A stretch of 37,716 nucleotides of DNA from Oscillospiraceae bacterium. Lineage in GTDB: Bacteria > Bacillota > Clostridia > Oscillospirales > Oscillospiraceae. The stretch covers positions 1 to 37,716 of the forward strand of contig JAFTVV010000035.1 of assembly GCA_017465625.1 (NCBI GenBank). Direction: 5' to 3'. Position 1 is the first letter of the stretch. Each line of letters opens with the position of its first letter. Shown here piece by piece: positions 411-37,716 of this stretch. Below the pieces are notes generated by a model. The model made no database searches. It worked only from the letters and a program-made list of their open reading frames with translations, and had not been told where the DNA came from. The position numbers and the translations under genes are program-made.

Positions 411-417
411 TTGCTAA

Positions 418-790
418 CGCAACGCGAGTCTATAAGCCGGGTTCTGTCTTGATAGTCATCTATCTAAACCTGCAATTGCTCACAGGTTTTAGCCGCCTCC
501 TCGGAACGGTCGGGCAAACCTATTGTTCCTCCACGGCGTTGCTCCGGATAGAGTTTACATCGTAAAACCTGTGTTTCCACAGGCCGGGTGGGCTCTTGCC
601 CCACCTTTTCACCCTTACCTCATCGTCGATTCGCGTTAGGATGATCGCGCTGAGGCGGTATATCTCTGTTGCACTTGTCCTGGGGTCACCCCCGGCGGGC
701 GTTACCCGTTATCCTTGCCCTGTGGAGCCCGGACTTTCCTCACCTGATGCCCGTTGGGGCATCAGCCGCGACTATCCAACTCGGTTGCGC
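418..790 (-). ncRNA. rnpB: RNase P RNA, class A
   Basis: This is the catalytic RNA that removes 5' leaders from precursor tRNA. On the minus strand the 5' part carries the universal GAGGAAAGTCCGGGCTCC block (complement of about 725-742) and the 3' part carries ACAGAACCCGGCTTAT (complement of about 431-446), both hallmarks of bacterial RNase P RNA. Helix P1 can be read directly: the 5' end CGCAACCGAGT pairs with the 3' end ACTCGCGTTGCG (418-429), which sets the ends. About 373 nt is a normal length. An open frame on the plus strand across this gene (596-850) is a by-product of the RNA sequence. It is transcribed from its own promoter at 797-825. Confidence 0.96.
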
Positions 791-33758: not shown

Positions 33759-34456
33759 TGCTGAAAGTAGAAGATATGCATGTGTTTTACGGTGCCATCC
33801 ACGCCATAAAGGGTGTGTCCTTCCACGTAGATGAGGGAGAGATCGTTGCGCTGATTGGTGCAAACGGTGCAGGCAAGAGTACCATTTTGAAGACGGTCTC
33901 CGGTCTGATGCATCCCCGCAGCGGCAGTATCTCCTTTATGGGGCAGAGTATTGCCCATACCGATGCCTATAAGCTGGTGCGTCATGGCCTTGCCCACGTC
34001 CCGGAGGGACGGCGCATCTTCCTGCAGATGACTGTGCAGGATAATCTGGCAATGGGCGCATTCACACAAAAGACGGTGTCCAAAGCGGACCTGGATATGG
34101 TCTTTGACCTGTTCCCCCGACTGAAAGAGCGTCGCACGCAGATTGCAGGCACGCTGTCCGGTGGTGAACAGCAGATGCTGGCAATGAGCAGAGCCCTGAT
34201 GAGTCATCCCAAACTGATGATGCTGGATGAGCCGTCTATGGGTCTTGCACCGATTTTGGTGGATCAGATTTTCAGCATTATTAAAGACTTGCATAAGGCA
34301 GGCACAACAATTTTGCTGGTGGAGCAGAATGCAAGCAAGGCTCTGCAGGTTGCAGACCGTGCCTATGTATTGGAAACCGGAAAAATCACCTTAGAGGGAA
34401 CCGGTGACGAGCTGGCCCACAGCGACGCAGTGCGAAAAGCCTACTTAGGCGGTTAA
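33758..34456 (+). CDS. livF: Branched-chain amino acid ABC transporter ATPase LivF
   Basis: 232 residues with Walker A GANGAGKST, VPEGRRIFLQMTVQDNLAMGA, signature LSGGEQQMLAMSRALM, Walker B MMLDEPSMGLAP and VEQNA, all standard for LivF. It heterodimerises with LivG. The start overlaps the livG stop by one base; AAGGAGG is inside the end of livG. A 15-bp terminator follows 4 bases after the stop. Confidence 0.96.
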   Translation: MLKVEDMHVFYGAIHAIKGVSFHVDEGEIVALIGANGAGKSTILKTVSGLMHPRSGSISFMGQSIAHTDAYKLVRHGLAHVPEGRRIFLQMTVQDNLAMGAFTQKTVSKADLDMVFDLFPRLKERRTQIAGTLSGGEQQMLAMSRALMSHPKLMMLDEPSMGLAPILVDQIFSIIKDLHKAGTTILLVEQNASKALQVADRAYVLETGKITLEGTGDELAHSDAVRKAYLGG

Positions 34457-34460
34457 ATAC

Positions 34461-34500
34461 ACACCCCCTGCATACAGTCGTATGCAGGGGGTGTCATTTT
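34461..34500 (+). terminator. Terminator of livJHMGF
   Basis: ACACCCCCTGCATAC (34461-34475) pairs perfectly over 15 bp with GTATGCAGGGGGTGT (34480-34494) around AGTC, followed by CATTTTT. A diverged copy of this hairpin lies at 34744-34777. Confidence 0.93.
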
Positions 34501-34530
34501 TGTCAAAAACTTGTTTTTTGGCAAAAATGA

Positions 34531-34741
34531 CAGAGGTCAAAGAAGCGCCAAAGACAAACAAATCGCACTCGTCGGCGTACAGGTGGTACGTTAGAGTGCG
34601 ATTTGTGCAGTAAGTCAAAATATATTGCGCCGCAAGGCGTTTTAGAAAAATTGCGTTCGGAACGGCAGACCCGTCCCCTACGCTATGAATCAAAAAATTT
34701 AAATTTATATTTTGACGGTTTGGGGGATCTTTGACACTCTG
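34531..34741 (+). repeat. ~212-bp structured element, copy A
   Basis: 211 bp between livF and a small membrane-peptide gene; nothing coding is seen. The ends pair: CAGAG (34531-34535) with CTCTG (34737-34741) and GTCAAAG (34536-34542) with CTTTGAC (34729-34735). Inside lie CCAAA/TTTGG (34548-34552 and 34719-34723) and GTCAAAA/TTTTGAC (34614-34620 and 34710-34716). There is a 13-bp hairpin (34558-34570 with 34594-34606) and a small GNRA-looped hairpin CGCC-GCAA-GGCG (34628-34639). Conserved unpaired blocks are AAGCG (34543-34547) and GCAGTAA. The orientation is set only by analogy with the flanking genes. Copy B is at 36512-36724. Confidence 0.85.
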
Positions 34742-34743
34742 AA

Positions 34744-34781
34744 ACATCCTCTGCATACGATTGTATGTAGGGGGTGTTTTT
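34744..34781 (+). terminator. Terminator-like hairpin carrying the next gene's ribosome binding site
   Basis: ACATCCTCTGCATAC (34744-34758) pairs with GTATGTAGGGGGTGT (34763-34777) over 15 bp including G-U pairs, followed by TTTT and then ATG at 34782. The 3' arm AGGGGGTG is the only plausible Shine-Dalgarno for that ATG. The hairpin is a diverged copy of the one at 34461-34494. Confidence 0.7.
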
Positions 34782-34928
34782 ATGTGCAGGCCCAATCAGT
34801 TACGGGGATATATACTGCTGAGTATCGGTTGCGGAATGGTGCTGGGGGTGTGGATGAGCAGTGCATTTCTGACCTACTGTGTGGCAGGAGTTATGGTGTT
34901 TGCAGGAGTCTCTGTGGTACGCAGGTAA
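34782..34928 (+). CDS. 48-residue membrane peptide
   Basis: No named family recognised. MCRPNQLRGYILLSIGCG begins a short basic N terminus followed by two hydrophobic segments (about residues 10-23 and 29-45) and a basic VVRR end, so it should sit in the membrane as a hairpin. Its ribosome binding site is within the terminator-like hairpin. It lies 56 bp upstream of the SPOCS/LysM gene in the same direction, and similar tiny proteins beside such genes in Clostridia come to mind, which suggests a sporulation link. Function unknown. Confidence 0.6.
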   Translation: MCRPNQLRGYILLSIGCGMVLGVWMSSAFLTYCVAGVMVFAGVSVVRR

Positions 34929-34984
34929 TATCCTTGTCCCCGGGCGCATAGGCTACTATAGAATCTTAGAAGGAGTGATTTTAT

Positions 34985-36472
34985 ATGGAATATCAACTGG
35001 ATGTGCAGCATTTGCCGTACCTGCGCCAGCTTCATACACAGCCGCAAACACGGGAAGAGACGCAGGAATTGCGCATTGGTGACGGACTGGGGAACATTGG
35101 AAGAGTGCTGTGTGCTTGGGGGCAGGTGGTGCTGCGTGGAAAGCAGTGGCAACCGGATGGCGTAGGTGTTCAGGGCGGCGTGATGGTATGGGTGCTGTAT
35201 GCCCCGGAGGATGGCGGTCCTGCCCAGTGCGTGGAGGACTGGATTCCGCTTTCTGTAAAATGGCCGGCAGAACAAAGCGAAGGGGACGGAAAGCTGTTCA
35301 CCACCTGGCTTTTACGGGGTGTGGATGCCCGTACCGTGGATTTGCGCAGACTGATGGTTCGGGTGACGGTGGATGTATATGCCGCCTGCTTTGTGCCGGA
35401 CCGTCTGCCGGTCTATTCGCCCAAGGAGTTGCCCAAGGATATTCTGCTGCTGGAAAAGAAAAAGCCGCTGTGTCTGGTGCAGGAGGTGGGCGAGAAAGCC
35501 TTTGTGCTGGATGAGGAACTGACACTGCCGTCCTCTGCACCGTCACCGGAAAAACTGGTGCGCTACAGTCTGGAAACAGAAATCAGCGACTGTAAAATCA
35601 TTGGGGATAAGGCGGTATTTCGGGGGAAGGGACTTTTGCACATTCTCTACCGTACCGCAGAAGGGGGAATGCAAAGCTGGGACTTTGAGATTCCCTTTTC
35701 CCAGTATACAGAATTGGATGATCACTATTCTGACGACAGCGGATTGTGGGTGCAGGCGATGGTTACCGCGCTGGAGGTAGAAGTGGCGGCGGAACGTATT
35801 CGCTTGAAGGCAGGTCTTGCAGGACAGTATATCCTTACAGCAGACAAGGAATATCCGATTGTAGAGGATGCCTACAGTCCGGATCGCACACTGCAGATGC
35901 AGCGAGAAAAGGTACAGGTCAGGAATCTTGTTTCTTTTCAGAGTGTGCCCATGCGCGCGGATGAAACAGGGCGCTTTGGCAGCAATCGGGTGGCAGACCT
36001 GAGCCTGAACATTGGTCTGCCTGAAAAACGTCGTAACAGTGATGGAGCAGAGCTGGAAATTCCCTGTCAGTTCAGTGCGCTGTATTACGATACAGAGGGA
36101 CTTCTGCAGTCGGCAACCACCAAATTTAGCGGCACGCACGGGGTAGATGCGGACAGTATGGAAGCCTGGACACAGCTGGATGGCACTTTGCAGGCCATTG
36201 CCGGGATGGACAGCACCATTATGCGGGGGGCCTACAGTCTGCAAATAGGGCATACAGAGGATGTGGAACTGATGCCTGTATCTGCTTTAACTGCAGATGA
36301 GCCACGGGAAAAAGATCCGGCACGTCCCAGCTTGATTTTACGAAAGGCAGGAAATAGCAGCCTTTGGGATATTGCAAAACAATGCGGTGCAACGGTAAAA
36401 GCCATTCAGGAGGCAAACGACCTGCAAGGGGAGCCCGATCCTGACAGGGTGCTGCTGATTCCCGTTTTGTAA
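34985..36472 (+). CDS. SPOCS (DUF3794) and LysM domain protein, probable spore coat/cortex-associated
   Basis: 495 residues, no signal peptide. The N-terminal two thirds contain DUF3794-type segments (about residues 30-140 and 190-290, e.g. LVRYSLETEISDCKIIGDKAVFRGKGLLHILYRT with the following FEIPFSQYTELD). A third beta-rich region follows, and a C-terminal LysM domain (about 448-495, NSSLWDIAKQCGATVKAIQEANDL ending in LLIPVL). LysM binds peptidoglycan; DUF3794 occurs in coat-morphogenesis proteins of the SpoVID/SipL kind. SipL of Clostridioides difficile has the same architecture, so a role at the spore cortex-coat boundary is likely but not proven. AGGAG is 9 bases before the ATG. Element copies lie on both sides of this gene and the 48-aa gene. 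Confidence 0.88.
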   Translation: MEYQLDVQHLPYLRQLHTQPQTREETQELRIGDGLGNIGRVLCAWGQVVLRGKQWQPDGVGVQGGVMVWVLYAPEDGGPAQCVEDWIPLSVKWPAEQSEGDGKLFTTWLLRGVDARTVDLRRLMVRVTVDVYAACFVPDRLPVYSPKELPKDILLLEKKKPLCLVQEVGEKAFVLDEELTLPSSAPSPEKLVRYSLETEISDCKIIGDKAVFRGKGLLHILYRTAEGGMQSWDFEIPFSQYTELDDHYSDDSGLWVQAMVTALEVEVAAERIRLKAGLAGQYILTADKEYPIVEDAYSPDRTLQMQREKVQVRNLVSFQSVPMRADETGRFGSNRVADLSLNIGLPEKRRNSDGAELEIPCQFSALYYDTEGLLQSATTKFSGTHGVDADSMEAWTQLDGTLQAIAGMDSTIMRGAYSLQIGHTEDVELMPVSALTADEPREKDPARPSLILRKAGNSSLWDIAKQCGATVKAIQEANDLQGEPDPDRVLLIPVL

Positions 36473-36481
36473 AGCAGAACG

Positions 36482-36509
36482 TGACAGTTTGAGTTTTCCT
36501 TGACATTCT
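36482..36509 (+). repeat. Solitary 3'-end remnant of the ~212-bp element
   Basis: These 28 bp match the last 28 bp of copy B (36697-36724) at all but about five positions, including GTTTG, TTTCCTTGAC and TTCT. They sit immediately upstream of copy B, head to tail. Confidence 0.7.
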
Positions 36510-36511
36510 AG

Positions 36512-36724
36512 CAGAGGTCAAGGAAGCGCCAAAGACAAGCAACTCGACCCCGAAGTGTATATAGATACTCGAGAGGGGAGAGTTGCGCAGTAAGTCAAAA
36601 CGCCTTGCACAGCAAGGTATTTTGGGAGATGCTTTTTTTTGAGACGGGAGACCGGCTTTTTGCAGTTTGAAACAAAATATGTTTATTTTGCGTTTTGACG
36701 GTTTGGGGTTTCCTTGACGTTCTG
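36512..36724 (+). repeat. ~212-bp structured element, copy B
   Basis: 213 bp after the SPOCS/LysM gene. CAGAG (36512-36516) pairs with TTCTG (36720-36724) and GTCAAGG (36517-36523) with CCTTGAC (36712-36718); both arms differ from copy A in a compensating way. CCAAA/TTTGG (36529-36533 and 36702-36706) and GTCAAAA/TTTTGAC (36594-36600 and 36693-36699) are identical to copy A. The first hairpin has a different sequence (GCAACTC 36539-36545 with GAGTTGC 36580-36586, then CCCC/GGGG), as does the second (CCTTGC 36603-36608 with GCAAGG 36612-36617). A third, CAAAAT/ATTTTG, is at about 36672-36689. Confidence 0.85.
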
Positions 36725-36758
36725 ACCGCCGCTGTGGGGGCTCACAGCGGCGGTCTTT
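36724..36758 (+). terminator. GC-rich hairpin after copy B, probable terminator
   Basis: GACCGCCGCTGTG (36724-36736) pairs perfectly over 13 bp with 36743-36755, followed by TTT. It begins on the last base of copy B and probably ends transcripts from the SPOCS/LysM operon. Confidence 0.7.
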
Positions 36759-36790
36759 GACGGCGTGTCGCATCGGGGGTGATGCCGTCA
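36758..36790. repeat. Second hairpin downstream of copy B
   Basis: TGACG (36758-36762) pairs with CGTCA (36786-36790), with GCATC (36770-36774) and GATGC (36781-36785) inside. Its role is unknown. Between it and the cobW promoter (36791-36878) I see only A/T-rich sequence with a small GCAT/ATGC stem. Confidence 0.45.
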
Positions 36791-36878
36791 GAATATACTT
36801 TAGCGTTTGTAGTTTGCGTATTCAAGAATATCCTGTCGATGAAAAAATCGAAAGCATAGAAAAATGCTCAAATAGGTG

Positions 36879-36941: not shown

Positions 36942-37716
36942 ATGACGATTATCGATATTTTTTCCGGCTTTTTGGGTGCCGGTAAAACAACCCTGATCAA
37001 AAAGCTGCTGCAGGAGGCTTATGCCGGTCAAAAGCTGATGCTTATTGAAAATGAATTTGGTGAAATCGGCATCGACGGCGGTTTCTTGCAGGATGCAGGC
37101 ATCAACATTACCGAGATGAACTCCGGCTGTATCTGCTGCAGTCTGGTGGGCGATTTTGGAAAGGCGCTGAAAGAAGCGATTGATACCTATGCCCCCGATC
37201 GCATCATCATTGAACCCTCTGGTGTGGGCAAGCTGTCCGATGTCATTGCCGCTGTTGAAAAGGTTGACGGCATTCAGTTGGGCTATACCGTAGCGGTTGT
37301 GGATGCCGGCAAGGTGAAAATCTACACCAAGAACTTTGGAGAGTTTTACAACAATCAGGTGGAGACGGCCTCTACCATCATTTTGTCCCGTACAGACGGT
37401 ATTTCCCAGGAAAAGTTAAACCTGGCGGTGGAAATCCTCCGCGGAATGAATGACCACGCCACCATTGTGACCACGCCCTGGCATCAGCTTTCCGGTCTGC
37501 AGCTGCTGACTGCGATGGAAGGCGGCGCTTCTGTGGCGGCAGAATTGCGGAAATTAGAGGAAGAGGCACACCATCATCACGCAGATCATTGCTGCTGTGG
37601 TCATCACGACCACGAGCATCACCACGACGAGGATGGTCATTGCTGCGGTCACCACGACCACGACCATCACCACGACGAGGATGGTCATTGCTGCGGTCAC
37701 CACGACCACGACCATC
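36942..37716 (+). CDS. COG0523/CobW-family GTPase with His/Cys/Asp-rich repeat tail (3' cut by window)
   Basis: At least 258 residues, open to the window end. Walker A GFLGAGKTT (9-17), ENEFGEIGIDGG, the metal-binding CxCC (C63, C65, C66 in NSGCICCS), IIEPSGVGKL and a SRTD guanine-specificity motif identify a G3E GTPase metallochaperone. From residue 210 (HHHH) comes a tail of 16-residue repeats of the type DGHCCGHHDHDHHHDE, three of them seen (37584-37631, 37632-37679, 37680 to the end); the last two are identical in DNA as far as visible. Such tails bind Zn, Ni or Co. Metal and client are not shown; the C-terminal CobW domain is not reached within the window. AAAGGAG precedes the ATG by 10 bases. 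Confidence 0.93.
   Translation, partial: MTIIDIFSGFLGAGKTTLIKKLLQEAYAGQKLMLIENEFGEIGIDGGFLQDAGINITEMNSGCICCSLVGDFGKALKEAIDTYAPDRIIIEPSGVGKLSDVIAAVEKVDGIQLGYTVAVVDAGKVKIYTKNFGEFYNNQVETASTIILSRTDGISQEKLNLAVEILRGMNDHATIVTTPWHQLSGLQLLTAMEGGASVAAELRKLEEEAHHHHADHCCCGHHDHEHHHDEDGHCCGHHDHDHHHDEDGHCCGHHDHDH
37584..37716 (+). repeat. 48-bp in-frame tandem repeat coding for metal-binding tail
   Basis: Unit 1 (37584-37631) is diverged; unit 2 (37632-37679) and the visible 37 bases of unit 3 (37680-37716) are identical. The array continues beyond the window. Confidence 0.95.

Follow-up and report, generated by a model that had tools for sequence, protein, structure and literature searches.

A short, dispersed element of gut Clostridia is very probably a non-autonomous, MITE-like member of the IS1182 family of insertion sequences, which targets terminators, duplicates the stem-loop into which it inserts and has a conserved three-way-junction body in the place of the IS1182 transposase gene. 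At the level of sequence, this reading brings together the dispersal of the element, the duplication at its target, empty sites, ends shared with IS1182 elements, a fused locus and covariation in the body. In the mechanism we propose, the element would land in the terminator stem-loops of genes, presumably by a cruciform step at the target and with the transposase acting in trans, and gap repair would leave the whole terminator stem-loop duplicated. With a stem-loop kept on both sides, insertion would probably be close to silent, and the fold of the body may work as RNA.

The window is the whole stretch of DNA analysed, 37,716 nucleotides from a 1.70-Mb draft genome of 80% completeness (G000). 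A preliminary description had reported a structured unit of ~212 bp present twice in it, as copies A (34531-34741) and B (36512-36724), with shared fixed blocks, an outer helix that covaries (GTCAAAG/CTTTGAC in A and GTCAAGG/CCTTGAC in B) and dissimilar hairpins at equivalent positions. We re-found both copies at these positions together with the fixed blocks, the covariation and the hairpins, and this observation is confirmed. Blocks of 211 and 213 nt are indeed present, but as limits they are too narrow: in relatives read with their flanks, the full unit is larger and consists, in order, of a terminator stem-loop, a terminal hairpin, the three-way-junction body and the identical terminator repeated. 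The terminal hairpin, the terminator duplication and the link to a transposase were all absent from the earlier account. The parts of the two copies are as follows.

34461-34494, no strand: left duplicated terminator stem-loop of copy A, with 82% identity to 34744-34777 and a perfect 15-bp inverted repeat
34495-34529, + strand: terminal hairpin (hp), an inverted repeat in which the left terminal repeat faces its own inverse
34531-34741, + strand: body of copy A, with the three-way-junction fold (P1, P2, P3)
34571-34594, + strand: conserved P2 core, GTCGGCGTACAGGTGGTACGTTAG in copy A; family pattern GTCGGCGTACANNGGTACGGTAG
34614-34716, + strand: P3 domain, formed by pairing of GTCAAAATATA with TATATTTTGAC around a variable region
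34744-34777, no strand: right duplicated terminator stem-loop of copy A, imperfect
36482-36509, + strand: right-end remnant of an earlier copy (tandem remnant), directly upstream of copy B
36512-36724, + strand: body of copy B, with a P2 core variant that recurs in other copies of the same genome
36725-36754, no strand: palindrome ACCGCCGCTGTG...CACAGCGGCGGT adjoining copy B, without a left partner in the window's genome

In a terminator scan, the left stem-loop of copy A scored as terminator-like, with the tail CATTTTTGTC, and the right one did not, a result that counts against assuming termination in both directions there. The terminal hairpin adjoins the left terminator in relatives too, and the outer P1 arms of the copy A body are similar to the terminal repeat. 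Copy B has neither a left terminator nor a terminal hairpin; the remnant upstream of it is 86% identical to 36696-36723 and matches the right-end pattern with 2 mismatches. Tandem copies also occur at other places, and some distant copies are likewise without the left terminator and hairpin. Compared with dinucleotide shuffles, the predicted folds of copy A (-83.1 kcal/mol, z -7.7) and copy B (-82.5 kcal/mol, z -7.2) are both exceptional, with 0 of 200 shuffles as good in either case. Elsewhere in the window, histidine-rich repeats with a 48-bp spacing (37569-37716) lie in the C-terminal part of a CobW-type gene that leaves the contig end.

A search of the whole genome and of relatives, as the preliminary description had proposed, found further copies in the window's own genome and in gut Clostridia. 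With copy B as the query, 12 places in the own genome matched, 10 of them over at least 147 bp and 2 over short lengths. With copy A as the query, element matches were found in 19 of 99 genomes, the own genome included; four genomes (G004, G015, G060 and G096) have an interior piece of 26-35 bp alone, which we do not count as a copy, and G070 gave short pieces for this query but has a full core at another place. The exact P2 core pattern GTCGGCGTACANNGGTACGGTAG has 0 matches in the window's own genome, where the copies carry variants. Across the order it is present in 12 of 394 genomes (8 of 168 genera); it was also matched in 2 viral contigs and, among named genomes, in at least 120 stretches. 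Hosts among the matches listed include Ructibacterium gallinarum DSM 107454, Candidatus Faecousia excrementipullorum and many drafts of gut Oscillospiraceae and Clostridia. A second viral pattern gave 0 matches in viral contigs, and one element copy searched against named plasmid and phage DNA gave no match. The right-end pattern has as many as 21 matches in one genome (G033) and 20 in another (G056).

Some loci depart from the usual arrangement. At L157 (contig C8 of G241, ~1455-1690), the body, which sits between two convergent reading frames, combines a three-way junction and the exact P2 core with a P1 unlike the terminal repeat; it is the sole exact core match in its genome and possibly a non-mobile relative of the RNA. 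On contig C15 of G000 (L011), a right end of the element lies 3' of a stretch resembling another dispersed repeat (TGTCATTCCGAGC...), probably a nested repeat. The variable region of P3 (e.g. in L065 and L075) often contains further short repeats (CACCTTCTCCC...GGAGAAGG or, in other cases, GGATTGCCACGG...CGCAATGAC) and looks as though it had received other insertions.

To measure target duplication, we compared the two flanks of each copy and scored their best direct repeat. In a first set, a score of 18 was reached by 95 of 162 copies and by ~2 of 484 flank pairs taken from different copies, the latter figure being derived from rounded fractions. Under stricter rules (a palindromic repeat, distinct copies and full flanks), a palindrome was duplicated around 83 of 158 distinct copies, with repeats of 21-36 bp (mean 28.8), and 0 of 623 mismatched flank pairs qualified; by score alone, the figures were 93/158 and 2/623. 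The remaining 75 of the 158 copies are without a clear duplication under the strict rules and, on reading, some of them are truncated, tandem or diverged, copy A being one of the diverged. The sequence of the terminator varies between copies, yet it matches on both sides of one copy.

Empty sites were sought in a sister species (G457), in which a neighbour gene is 90% identical, and two sites were compared. At the positions of two copies in G000 (L008 and L009), the sister species has the same neighbours, one terminator and no element. The duplication of palindromes, the absence of qualifying mismatched pairs and the two empty sites therefore lead us to conclude that insertion duplicates the whole stem-loop. 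At the site of copy A, the sister species keeps both stem-loops and a 3' remnant of the element, and the insertion of copy A consequently looks older than the species split. By eye, the site of copy B in the sister species (contig C103, L297) has two versions of the palindrome flanking a remnant in the opposite orientation; either two insertions into this terminator or an inversion of the insert may explain the arrangement. Overall, from these sequence comparisons, the mobility of the element, its target and its duplication of the terminator are well supported. The preliminary description had offered two readings, a selected RNA fold and a hairpin-rich miniature mobile element, and both are supported, the second by the multiple copies, the terminator target duplication, the two empty sites and the IS1182-type ends described below.

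We aligned 39 element copies with duplications, less than 88% alike by our measure, and named the structure from single-sequence folds placed on one copy (L065): the terminal hairpin, the outer helix P1, P2 with its core and P3. As three poorly placed pairs were removed before covariation was counted, the figures refer to the 56 remaining pairs. Of 2165 cells, 91.0% were paired, compared with 35.8-43.6% in slid versions of the structure; two-sided changes were found in 39 of the 56 pairs, with 0 of 500 shuffles as high, and the covariation score was 0.455 against 0.159 in shuffles, these controls not being probabilities, given that the copies are related to one another and that a single one of them served for placing the structure. 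Every pair of the P2 stem (13/13) has a two-sided change. Unaided, RNAalifold recovered the terminal hairpin and P2 and did not recover P1 and P3. On the + strand, G-U pairs outnumbered A-C pairs (which would be G-U on the other strand) by 123 to 38 cells; these cells are not independent, and p values calculated from them are therefore too small. Counted by pairs, 21 have G-U only, 6 have A-C only, 13 have both and 16 have neither. The bias points to the + strand of the body as the one under selection, whether in the form of RNA or of single-stranded DNA.

The preliminary description had not recognised the element as a known Rfam-type class, and no covariance model exceeded its gathering score at the element. 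The Rfam scan of the window matched a single family, bacterial class A RNase P RNA (416-787, minus strand, 265.2 bits); a permissive scan of 34440-36800 gave only matches below the gathering scores; and among 20 scanned loci, of which 19 have the core, one tRNA and one GP20-b were matched, neither at the element. A known RNA family is rejected on these scans. With copies present in relatives, a fold that covaries and no match to a described family, the results are the reverse of what that description had set down as evidence against it.

The body may be a working RNA that acts in trans or in cis, for example by regulating, by binding a protein or as a cofactor of transposition, its fold being kept by selection for the RNA rather than for transposition. 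We consider this quite possible, if somewhat short of an even chance; mobility would then be its means of spread, and the reading is compatible with the IS1182-type explanation. It is favoured by the covariation of P1, P2 and P3 across genera, by the nearly fixed P2 core and by the distribution of the G-U excess (G-U/A-C cells), which is strongest in P1a (53/9) and P2 (25/4), smaller in P3 (20/12) and P1b (17/7) and absent in the terminal hairpin (8/6). The three-way fold of L157, with its P1 unlike the terminal repeat and the single exact core match of its genome, points the same way. Within the terminal hairpin, a promoter-like match (9 of 12; 34500-34528) is directed towards body A, but it is weak and is mirrored on the other strand (34524-34496), as palindromes would give, and we attach little weight to it. 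Against a working RNA stand the absence of an Rfam match and the variable orientation relative to host genes. Using a codon model trained on the genes of the window, we scored the contexts of 73 duplicated copies (10 more were too short): 20 were convergent, 8 had both genes in the same direction as the element, 6 had both in the opposite direction and 39 were uncertain on one or both sides. No orientation bias was seen in the tandem contexts (8 same and 6 opposite). Both orientations occur, which fits a symmetric target, and host read-through therefore cannot be the sole route of transcription. A narrower version, in which an IS1182-type transposon spreads the body as a functional RNA, for example as a transposase partner or as a mobile regulator at gene ends, is offered more tentatively; if it were true, a DDE-transposase family would gain a previously unknown RNA partner or RNA cargo.

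Alternatively, the fold could be needed as single-stranded DNA in transposition or replication rather than as RNA, which we regard as possible but rather unlikely. The terminal hairpin is a near-perfect palindrome without G-U bias, and the insertion target is itself a hairpin, both as this alternative would have it. Because G-T pairs are tolerated in DNA, the strand bias cannot separate DNA from RNA. On the other side, IS1182 elements from this order, which do without the body, show the same duplication at their insertions; the body is accordingly dispensable for the reaction as such. Of the selected RNA fold proposed at the outset, the part that stands is an interior fold kept by compensatory change in distant copies, which may act as RNA or as single-stranded DNA.

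For IS1272, a member of the IS1182 family, the passages concerned in two papers (PMC4923244, PMC5678879) report stem-loop and terminator targets without target duplication, the inverted repeat being replaced according to one and the target partly deleted according to the other; in Wan et al. 2017 (PMC5678879, Fig 13, pathway b), a cruciform attacked at its 5' feet is said to allow duplication of the stem-loop in full. In view of these reports, we searched for IS1182 transposases. Matches were found in 29 of 99 genomes, 12 of them above the family cut-off, including two genomes that bear the element (G000 and G022). In the window's own genome, an element copy adjoins an IS1182 transposase gene at a fused locus (L428), where a terminator is followed by the element body (minus strand), the shared hairpin, the transposase gene, the IS1182 right end and a second terminator. 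The two outer terminators are identical over 37 bp. The gene is

L428:2514-3938: transposase gene of 474 codons

and its product scores 379.7 bits (cut-off 270) with NF033551, the NCBIfam model for IS1182, and has the Pfam domains DDE_Tnp_1_6, DUF772 and DDE_Tnp_1. On the simplest reading, one end of the element and one IS1182 end would have been used jointly in a single insertion; a stepwise origin may be the alternative.

IS1182 elements themselves duplicate palindromes. In the order, 12 stretches were taken and 11 examined, a G029 fragment at a contig edge being omitted: 5 of the 11 loci have a palindrome duplication of 25-64 bp, and the other 6, one of which has no left flank in its contig, are without a clear one. 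The longest, a target duplication of very great length, lies at L436 (G039, contig C51), where identical 64-bp palindromes stand on either side of an IS1182 element. Among eight annotated plasmid and phage loci, hand-picked from 1790 plasmid and 23 phage records with clinical strains avoided (Sutcliffiella, Exiguobacterium, Thermocaproicibacter, Acetoanaerobium, Rhizobium, Sphingobium, a faecal phage record and Streptococcus satellite phage Javan256), 5 have the duplication and 3, one of them cut by the record end, do not. Combined, palindromes are duplicated at 10 of 19 IS1182 loci and not at 9. The ends of the ten duplicated loci and of seven element copies form one class: the left end is CAGCTTGTCAAAAAACT in the element at L003 and CAGCTTGTCAAAAAACT in the IS1182 of G022, and the right ends have TGTCAAAGAACCCCC in common.

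When five IS1182 transposases were compared by tblastn with the element loci (IS1182 loci excluded), the matches were three overlapping loci, all from the fused place in G000; we term the element non-autonomous because it has no IS1182 transposase gene of its own. When 14 other element-bearing genomes, half of them (7) at least 90% complete, were searched with the IS1182 transposase model, 13 gave no match and the fourteenth a 52-residue fragment; of 15 element-bearing genomes searched with the DDE domain model, 14 gave no match. Any IS1182 match was seen in 7 of 19 genomes with element matches and in 22 of 80 others, so that co-occurrence of element and transposase is weak. If the helper is IS1182, it would often be missing from the genome that bears the element; the loss of repeats from drafts and the survival of miniature elements beyond their helpers may account for this. 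No longer, autonomous form of the element was seen in 30 right-end loci and 40 further stretches, in which 330-500 nt upstream were read and some were without the left part, mostly through contig-end cuts with a few shortened or eroded, nor was one found in the 182 of 295 loci that were scanned for unattached terminal repeats.

These observations bear on whether an unidentified enzyme outside the IS1182 family, with the same ends and target preference, could move the element, the IS1182 fusion being coincidental or a late capture. The absence of an IS1182 transposase from most element-bearing genomes tested would suit such an enzyme. However, IS1182 members of Bacillota and Pseudomonadota resemble the element both in terminal sequence and in the way they use their targets, the fused locus has one element end and one IS1182 end inside identical terminators, and no longer element with other genes was present in the stretches inspected, which together make it improbable. 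We conclude from its ends, its target behaviour and one fused locus that the element is best assigned as non-autonomous and IS1182-type, the fused locus being circumstantial support for movement by an IS1182 transposase. Finally, that the paired terminators are the element's own part, or were selected as two terminators, is hardly credible: stem-loops do stand on both sides and some pairs have diverged, but the terminators are copy-specific and the same on both sides of one copy, flanks do not match across copies, and the single terminator at each of the two empty sites tested refutes the idea for those sites.

The element supplies natural cases, empty sites included, in which transposition has left an entire terminator stem-loop duplicated, and it ties to a DNA transposon a structured body that is without an Rfam match and is conserved across gut Clostridia. 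The cruciform-directed target choice of IS1182 elements is now directly testable, and annotators might otherwise take the doubled terminators for chance or for regulation.

Bacterial MITEs are short, non-coding and multicopy, have terminal inverted repeats and a target duplication and are presumably mobilised in trans. The element has all of these traits in common with them; unlike theirs, its target duplication is variable in length and set by the hairpin, and its interior keeps, throughout families of the order, a fold that covaries and is biased to one strand. Group IIC introns are structured RNAs at terminators, and the element resembles them in having a structured body at such sites, but it has no Rfam intron match and has terminal repeats and a target duplication of the DNA-transposon type. 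Long direct repeats are known from IS1634-type elements. With the IS1182 family, including IS1272 (NF033551), the element shares its class of ends (CAG, then TGTC or TGTA, then an A-rich stretch), a left-end hairpin, seen by eye in several members, a palindromic terminator as target and the whole-palindrome duplication of 10 of the 19 IS1182 loci; it differs in its structured body and in having no transposase gene. It is unlike IS1272 itself, for which the passages cited above describe replacement or partial deletion of the stem-loop and no duplication (PMC4923244, PMC5678879). Its behaviour is like the attack on the 5' feet of a cruciform in the model of Wan et al. 2017 (PMC5678879), where duplication of the whole stem-loop is, in the part concerned, drawn as a theoretical branch and not as the behaviour of IS1272, whereas here it is a genomic pattern. 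No IS1182-derived miniature element with a structured RNA was found in the literature covered (titles and abstract openings, with few subscription papers and no preprints). The new part is the cargo, a covarying, strand-biased fold without an Rfam match.
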